Part shown: piece after piece, positions 19,244 through 35,410 of the stretch | Layout: each line of letters opens with the position of its first letter | How positions within the stretch are numbered: the first letter of the stretch is position 1 | DNA from: Bacteroidota bacterium | Lineage (GTDB): Bacteria > Bacteroidota > Ignavibacteria > UBA10030 | Assembly (NCBI GenBank): GCA_025454835.1 | Contig: JALONQ010000016.1 | Span: forward strand, 1-64,000 | Length of the DNA stretch: 64,000 nt | Reading direction: 5' to 3' | Translations under genes and position numbers: made by a program | Notes under the pieces: generated by a model | What the model was told of the DNA's origin: nothing | The model's input: only the letters and a program-made list of their open reading frames with translations | Databases searched by the model: none

Positions 19244-19249
19244 GTTCCG

Positions 19250-19333
19250 TGCCCAGGACAGGACTTGAACCTGCACAGCCTTGCGGCCACTAGACCCTGA
19301 ATCTAGCGTGTCTGCCAATTTCACCACCTGGGC
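19250..19333 (-). tRNA. tRNA-Leu (anticodon CAG)
   Basis: The minus strand folds as a class II tRNA of 84 nt. The acceptor stem is GCCCAGG/CCTGGGC with discriminator A. The D arm has a GTG/CAC stem. The anticodon arm is CTAGA-TTCAGGG-TCTAG with CAG in the loop. A variable arm GCC-GCAA-GGC and a T arm with GTTCAAGT follow. The 3' CCA is not encoded. A partial second copy of its 5' half lies upstream at 19603-19743, beyond the GIY-YIG gene. Confidence 0.95.
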
Positions 19334-19343
19334 AACGAACTAC

Positions 19344-19592
19344 CTACTTCCCCTTCTTGAACTGCCTTCGGATCCAACGCTTGCCGGTACTGCTCTTCAG
19401 GAACTTTTCGCGCAATCGGGCTTCACTGCGTGTCGCGAACGACTCCACGTGAATGAGTCGGAATGGACGGTAGGGCCGTGTTGTGCGTTCTTTTCCGTCG
19501 TTATGCTGCCCGAATCGACGGTCGACGTCATTTGTCAGACCGACGTAAAGATGGTTCCGAACGAGGCTATCCAGAACATATACAAACCACAT
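19344..19592 (-). CDS. GIY-YIG nuclease (82 residues), tRNA-associated
   Basis: The 82-residue protein is a minimal GIY-YIG domain of the UvrC-N/YhbQ (URI) type. FVYVLDS corresponds to the GIY strand and LYVGLTNDVDRRFGQHN to the YIG strand plus the catalytic arginine. SEARLREKFLKSSTGKRW supplies the metal-binding glutamate and the basic tail. The ATG at 19592 was chosen because the family always starts at the GIY strand; the frame is open upstream to 19748 but that part is palindromic repeat and tRNA remnant. The gene ends ten bases before the intact tRNA-Leu and begins ten bases after a duplicate tRNA 5' half, so it lies between two copies of the same tRNA segment. Such small proteins may be nicking or homing enzymes; the cleavage site is unknown. 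Confidence 0.85.
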   Translation of the reverse strand: MWFVYVLDSLVRNHLYVGLTNDVDRRFGQHNDGKERTTRPYRPFRLIHVESFATRSEARLREKFLKSSTGKRWIRRQFKKGK

Positions 19593-19614
19593 TCGCCCCC
19601 ACGAATCTAGCGTG

Positions 19615-19686
19615 CCTGCCTGCCGCCCTGCCGGAAGTGGTCCGCCTAGGCGGCAGGGCAGGCAGGCCTGTCTACCGACAGGTAGA
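19615..19686. repeat. Palindromic insertion in the tRNA remnant (larger)
   Basis: CCTGCCTGCC at 19615-19624 and GGCAGGCAGG at 19657-19666 are inverted copies. A second small hairpin, CCTGTC-TACC-GACAGG, follows directly. The block splits the tRNA remnant between CACGCTAGATTC and GAAATTGGCAGA (minus strand). The same CCTGCCTGCC ends occur at 35358-35410. Confidence 0.75.
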
Positions 19687-19698
19687 TCTGCCAATTTC

Positions 19699-19733
19699 CT
19701 GCCCGACTGACGGACAACTGTCCGGCAGGCGGG
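19699..19733. repeat. Palindromic insertion in the tRNA remnant (smaller)
   Basis: This 35-base block contains the perfect stem CGGACA-AC-TGTCCG, with outer CTGCC and GGCAG partly pairing. It splits the D-arm region of the tRNA remnant. It shares the CTGCC/GGCAG ends of the larger palindrome. Confidence 0.65.
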
Positions 19734-19752
19734 CACCACCTGGTGCATGGAA

Positions 19753-19785
19753 CAAAATATACGAAGATCTGTCCGATTTTCAAAA
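19753..19785 (-). promoter_or_regulatory. Promoter reading into the tRNA remnant, GIY-YIG gene and tRNA-Leu
   Basis: On the minus strand TTTTG, 19 bases, then TATATTTTG closely fits the Bacteroidota primary-sigma consensus TTTG-N19-TAnnTTTG. The tRNA remnant begins nine bases after it. It is most simply the original tRNA-Leu promoter, which would now transcribe the remnant, the GIY-YIG gene and the intact tRNA together. Confidence 0.7.
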
Positions 19786-34117: not shown

Positions 34118-34228
34118 CTGCCCCGGAATGAATTCCGGGGCAGTTAGTGCCGTTTCCCATAGCTCTTATTGTGCGGCATGTGAGAGAAGCATGGGAAACG
34201 AGCCTGTCTGCCGCGAGGCAGGCACTAG
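34118..34228. repeat. Composite palindromic repeat block
   Basis: CTGCCCCGGAAT and ATTCCGGGGCAG (34118-34129, 34132-34143) form a perfect 12-bp hairpin with a two-base loop. CGTTTCCCAT and ATGGGAAACG (34151-34160, 34191-34200) are a second pair enclosing 30 bases. TAGTGCC (34145-34151) pairs with GGCACTA (34221-34227) around the whole second part. A GCCTGTCTGCC/GGCAGGC hairpin lies near 34202-34223, related to the palindromes at 19615 and 35358. Confidence 0.75.
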
Positions 34229-35357: not shown

Positions 35358-35410
35358 CCTGCCTGCCACGTTCGTCGTTCGGTCATTGAACGTGGCAAGC
35401 GGCAGGCAGG
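35358..35410. repeat. Dispersed palindrome with CCTGCCTGCC ends
   Basis: CCTGCCTGCC (35358-35367) and GGCAGGCAGG (35401-35410) are inverted ends. Just inside, TGCCACGTTC and GAACGTGGCA form a 10-bp stem. The ends match those of the palindrome inside the tRNA remnant at 19615-19666. Confidence 0.75.

Follow-up and report, generated by a model that had tools for sequence, protein, structure and literature searches.

Why does the gene for an 82-residue nuclease lie between a broken and an intact copy of the same tRNA gene? The question is raised by one locus in a window of 64,000 nucleotides (the whole stretch of DNA that was analysed) from a Bacteroidota bacterium. On the minus strand, a promoter-like site is followed in order by a partial copy of tRNA-Leu, a GIY-YIG gene, a 10-base spacer and an intact tRNA-Leu(CAG) (Table 1). 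This layout recurs at many tRNA genes in several bacterial phyla, and it suggests a mobile element of very small size, one that leaves its host with a working tRNA.

Layout of the locus

Table 1. Features of the tRNA-Leu locus, numbered from the first letter of the window
Feature	Position	Strand	Basis or remark
Promoter-like site, TTGAAA, 16-18 nt, TATATT/TATTTT	19754..19783	-	Consensus match only
Partial tRNA-Leu copy, block 1 (tRNA positions 3-12)	19734..19743	-	Exact match
Palindromic hairpin insert 1 in partial copy, ~36 bp, CCCGCCTGCCGGACAG...GGGCAGG	19699..19733	-	
Partial tRNA-Leu copy, block 2 (tRNA positions 12-23)	19687..19698	-	Exact match
Palindromic insert 2 in partial copy, 72 bp, two hairpins	19615..19686	-	
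Partial tRNA-Leu copy, block 3 (tRNA positions 24-35)	19603..19614	-	Exact match
82-aa GIY-YIG nuclease gene, including stop codon	19344..19592	-	Pfam, residues, structure model
Intact tRNA-Leu(CAG)	19249..19333	-	Starts 10 bp past the nuclease stop codon

The preliminary description had listed a good promoter, an 82-residue GIY-YIG gene and an intact tRNA-Leu, with about 270 bases between the duplicated halves, and all of these were found again, the promoter as a promoter-like site (TTGAAA-16-TATATT at 19783-19756 on the minus strand, with 10/12 consensus matches). The region holds 3 such sites against 0.5 expected, and the partial copy adjoins this one, which is just upstream. The partial copy ends at 19603 and the intact tRNA begins at 19333, and the sole ORF in the interval is the GIY-YIG gene; no integrase gene lies between the two copies, and Rfam found no group I intron at the locus. 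The duplicate had been read as one stretch of 34 nt ending in the anticodon loop. Its content and its anticodon end hold, but it is not continuous: two palindromic inserts divide it into three exact colinear blocks that repeat tRNA positions 3-35, 33 nt in total, and stop at the first anticodon base.

The 82-aa ORF matches the Pfam GIY-YIG family (E=2.6e-17), the catalytic-type residues Y5, Y16, R26, H30 and E62 are conserved, and the structure model reaches a pLDDT of 95. The closest solved structures by E value are UPF0213 (E ~3e-13) and SLX1 (E ~1e-7); a fold search also puts these two first, with the catalytic domain of I-TevI after them. A median dN/dS of 0.14 over 34 pairs shows that purifying selection acts on the nuclease. 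A PHROG match was weak and partial (E=2.7e-4 over 31 residues), and the NCBIfam group I endonuclease family gave a weak match, below cut-off, for one relative only. A phage or plasmid as the vehicle was rejected: only 3 phage records, all weak, and no plasmids match the protein, and two loci with a nuclease relative are on viral contigs, one of them bearing a hairpin-carrying 3' copy of tRNA-Ser.

Recurrence at other tRNA genes

The window's own genome holds 5-8 GIY-YIG matches, the number varying with the query. A full second example occurs at tRNA-Ser(GCT), with a 5' copy carrying a hairpin insert of ~60 bp, the nuclease gene and an intact tRNA; contigs C15 and C12 break within it and overlap by ~100 bases. 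A third, decayed copy adjoins tRNA-Pro. A further GIY-YIG gene lies a few hundred bases downstream of a tRNA gene that a group I intron interrupts (L005:2009-2283, G000 C34; 84.7 bits to Rfam RF00028), the only such intron found and at another tRNA than that of the window. Two members of a second GIY-YIG subfamily in the same genome (G000 C45:22384-22581 and C18:1501-1701; L293 and L294) have no tRNA gene nearby and lie near a different dispersed palindrome, CCCGTCATCCCTCGGCT..CGCTCGGGATGAC.

Within the order, 74 of 98 genomes carry a relative of the nuclease. Loci with a named host are spread over Bacteroidota, Ignavibacteriota, Chlorobiota, Balneolota, Fidelibacterota, Omnitrophota, Zixiibacteriota, Planctomycetota, Nitrospirota and several Patescibacteria-type lineages, with cultured Flavobacterium, Pedobacter and Reichenbachiella among them. 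The genomes surveyed are mostly metagenome assemblies; an assembly artefact is unlikely, because single-contig genomes show the same layout and arrays. Of 198 distinct nuclease loci, collected through their resemblance to a nuclease that had first been noticed next to a tRNA, 166 have a same-strand tRNA gene no more than 400 bp away, and more distant GIY-YIG branches may be located elsewhere; by arithmetic on 38 tRNA genes, roughly 0.5% of a genome lies in such a position by chance. The remaining loci are mostly inner members of arrays, contig ends, or sites with tRNA remnants only. Tandem arrays reach 5 units or more. The tRNA-Leu originally named as the target is one of many: at least 12 tRNA isotypes, in several phyla, have a relative at their genes, and its strand is always that of the tRNA.

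The nuclease lineage tracks tRNA isotype across phyla. On the nuclease tree, which has few alignment columns and many unresolved forks, isotype changes number 29 against a shuffled mean of 90.5, a figure to which near-copies contribute; a thinned, named set gives 21 changes against 38.4 when shuffled, and isotype clades span phyla.

Two mirror forms and the source of the spare half

Which part of the tRNA is duplicated? At 92 loci, as in the window, the nuclease gene is preceded by a 5' copy and followed by the intact tRNA (5' form); at the other 74, about 45% of those linked to a tRNA, the tRNA lies upstream and a 3' copy downstream (3' form). The preliminary description had proposed a search for relatives with the nuclease between a partial and a full tRNA copy, and such relatives abound: a colinear far-side copy with 20 or more matched bases was found at 134 of the 166 tRNA-linked loci, against 2 of 166 control regions from other loci and none of the shuffled sequences. 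As to chance, the match of 33 nt in the window can be set beside shuffled controls, which reached 16 nt or more in 0/166. Of the 5' copies, 73 of 79 start with base 1-3 of the tRNA; of the 3' copies, 48 of 55 finish within the last 5 bases. Break points had been expected in the anticodon loop, and 36 of 79 5' copies do end between -4 and +3 of the first anticodon base; as a universal rule this was rejected, since under half of the 5' copies fit, and a break at that place is common in the 5' form only.

It had also been proposed that the module carries its own replacement 5' half. This cargo model is disfavoured, because the host's flanks and species-specific acceptor sequences are duplicated as well: the promoter-side flank was copied along with the tRNA part at L033, L053, L094 and L096, and the terminator at L213. 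Copies agree with their own host's acceptor sequence at 98% and with the same isoacceptor elsewhere at 73%, although the former value is inflated by the similarity-based selection of copies. These comparisons favour a spare half that was host DNA, probably duplicated at insertion.

Empty and filled sites

The clearest empty sites, a check that had been called for, are in Flavobacterium, at a tRNA-Arg(TCG) gene beside an ORF that we take to be yqeY. Among 30 genomes, 27 are clean empty sites with a single tRNA, where copy, hairpin and nuclease are all missing together, two are filled (L217 with the 5' form, L213 with the 3' form) and one, L207, is scar-like, with a hairpin-bearing copy but without the nuclease gene. 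The nuclease genes of L131 and of L104 and L141 (yqeY–tRNA-Arg(TCG) locus) are ~80% identical in DNA, lie on opposite sides of the tRNA and belong to different Flavobacterium species, which would mean separate insertions or a switch of side.

At tRNA-Leu(CAG), the nuclease is present in 2 of 30 genomes of the order, with hairpin-bearing copies lacking the nuclease in three more. Empty tRNA-Leu(CAG) genes were found elsewhere in the order, not at the locus syntenic with the window's. Within the family, the search for a syntenic empty site through the neighbouring tricorn-like protease found none, and orthologues of that protease (~70% identity) have no tRNA-Leu adjoining.

A probable homing-type element in tRNA genes

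How might such an arrangement arise? We hold it rather probable that a minimal mobile element of the homing type, ~0.3 kb in size, resides here and in other tRNA genes; that the nuclease cleaves the tRNA gene and that the element moves are inferred from sequence comparison. The nuclease would cut the tRNA gene, and the broken end would copy the element from a donor by means of homology in the tRNA. Repair would duplicate host tRNA sequence, sometimes along with a promoter or terminator, leaving one complete tRNA. In the 5' form seen in the window, the old 5' half would remain upstream with its promoter, from which the restored tRNA is probably read through. A hairpin within the homology arm may, as a guess, shield that arm from the nuclease, and repeated cutting of the intact copy would account for the tandem arrays.

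The very small, integrase-free element that had been suggested, aimed at a tRNA gene and leaving one good tRNA behind, is upheld by its recurrence in many genomes and by the existence of empty sites. Some observations count against the homing reading. The intact tRNA in an occupied genome still offers an uninterrupted site that the nuclease might cut, no donor-recipient pair was caught among the loci, some hairpin-bearing copies lack the nuclease gene, and hairpins are dispersed away from tRNA copies.

Hairpins and dispersed palindromes

The hairpins suggest another order of events, which we regard as unlikely though deserving of real weight: the hairpins themselves would be the mobile units, moved by the GIY-YIG protein into the loops of tRNA genes, with duplication of the tRNA rescuing the host. 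In this doubtful scheme, the protein would act on stem-loops and only cells with a duplicated tRNA would survive; SLX1, among the nearest solved relatives of the window protein, is a structure-specific nuclease. Inserts of at least 14 bp occur in 110 of 134 copies (~80%). Of the well-placed ones, 82/104 fold better than 95% of their own shuffles, and, in keeping with hairpin mobility, 81/104 lie in the D-, anticodon- or T-loop, against an expectation of ~34% from the share of tRNA positions in these loops. Hairpin type also follows isotype, as this alternative would have it (Arg 38/40 CC..GG; Ser 26/40 T..A; Pro 5/5 T..A). Past the hairpin, on the nuclease side, a stretch with a median length of 12-13 bases follows.

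A 20-bp palindrome, CCTGCCTGCCGGCAGGCAGG, is also scattered in genomes away from tRNA copies. It is commoner where the nuclease is present (48/74 genomes against 7/24 without; Fisher p=0.004, a test that ignores shared ancestry), which speaks for hairpin mobility; its presence in 7 of the 24 genomes where no nuclease was detected speaks against, as does the lack of a nuclease gene near the dispersed palindromes of the window's genome. A dispersed palindromic repeat of ~120 bp with a CCTGTCTGCCGCGAGGCAGG-type core occurs at 34203-34222 of the window and at L188 and L190, and a further palindrome, of CCTGCCTGCC..GGCAGGCAGG type and apparently intergenic, at 35358-35410.

Two kinds of locus had been named in advance as evidence against a tRNA-targeted element, and both are mostly absent. 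A 5'-half copy without the nuclease was one; hairpin-bearing partial copies without a detectable nuclease gene do exist at L184, L207, L258, L265 and L278, which may be scars or nuclease-independent copies and which would suit mobile hairpins. A nuclease gene away from any tRNA copy was the other, with L062 and L181 as exceptions. At L062 (G050 C116), the GIY-YIG gene is within an inverted repeat, TTTACCCCGTGAGAT..ATCTCACGGGGTAAA, which seems to interrupt a protein-coding gene. At L181, the GIY-YIG gene adjoins what resembles a duplicate of the first part of a sugar-epimerase-like gene, and there the mechanism may have acted on a protein gene. The inverted repeat at L062 again agrees with mobile hairpins. 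That alternative would, if true, enlist a nuclease class not known for such a role, and alone it leaves the position of the nuclease gene at the tRNA copies unaccounted for.

Very unlikely is a passenger role, in which tRNA-flanking regions tolerate insertions and the copies were left by integrases or recombination. tRNA genes are well-known integration hot spots and nuclease-free copies exist, but the proportion of loci beside a same-strand tRNA (166/198 against roughly 0.5%), the joint absence of copy and nuclease at the 27 clean empty sites, the tracking of isotype by the nuclease lineage, and a span of ~270 bp that is too short for an integrase all argue against it. Least credible of all is that the locus is retained as a cellular or defence device (for example, a nuclease expressed from the tRNA promoter and acting on tRNA or invading DNA): the same-strand layout agrees with read-through from that promoter and purifying selection is in keeping with it, but patchiness at orthologous tRNA loci, the many tRNA targets, the arrays and the decayed remnants better fit a mobile element, and a defence library gave no match for the window protein and only weak partial ones for others.

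If the homing-type reading is right, a small GIY-YIG gene that is very common in Bacteroidota and several further phyla would be one of the smallest autonomous mobile elements. Its targets would be essential tRNA genes, of a dozen isotypes, and lethality would be avoided by duplication rather than by splicing or integration. Such an element would account for many partial tRNA copies and for contig breaks at tRNA genes, would be a possible source of dispersed palindromes of unknown origin, and would be testable in culturable Flavobacterium and Pedobacter.

Comparison with known systems

A search of the open-access literature found no description of a GIY-YIG gene with tRNA copies or palindromes, and several known systems share parts of the pattern. 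Integrative elements at tRNA attachment sites likewise leave a partial and a restored tRNA, but their insertion depends on an integrase and they span kilobases. REP hairpins are dispersed short palindromes associated with a small nuclease, the RAYT transposase, which is thought to mobilise them; RAYTs are Y1 (HUH) enzymes, whereas the window protein is GIY-YIG. In the gene-restoring mobile ORFs of fungal mitochondria, such as the Allomyces atp6 insertion, insertion of a nuclease ORF likewise results in a complete gene beside a surplus part of it, but there the target is a protein gene in an organelle and hairpins are lacking.

As in a free-standing GIY-YIG homing endonuclease, the window protein has a GIY-YIG domain with conserved catalytic-type residues and lies outside any intron or intein, and empty alleles exist, at the tRNA-Arg locus in Flavobacterium and not at the window's own. 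A comparable enzyme is SegB, which is larger than the 82-aa protein and was reportedly studied by Brok-Volchanskaya in 2008, in work cited in PMC3984707. Group I introns with homing endonucleases also occur in bacterial tRNA genes (PMC3984707, a review), and they resemble the window element in their insertion site, their homing nuclease and the preservation of the tRNA product; in the introns, RNA splicing restores the tRNA, whereas here a second DNA copy does so.

According to the passages of PMC13096335 drawn on here, SegB is a free-standing GIY-YIG homing endonuclease of T-even phages that lies beside phage tRNA genes and was shown experimentally to drive tandem amplification of the tRNA-nuclease unit through breaks and recombination. 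Because of that amplification in phage, the arrays can be read as the outcome of a SegB-type event. Both systems have a GIY-YIG nuclease outside any intron and among tRNA genes. SegB, however, is phage-borne, and the same passages name microhomology and no hairpin-bearing partial tRNA copies (PMC13096335), whereas the window element belongs to bacterial chromosomes, consists of a bare 82-aa domain, and is accompanied by partial tRNA copies with hairpins in their loops.
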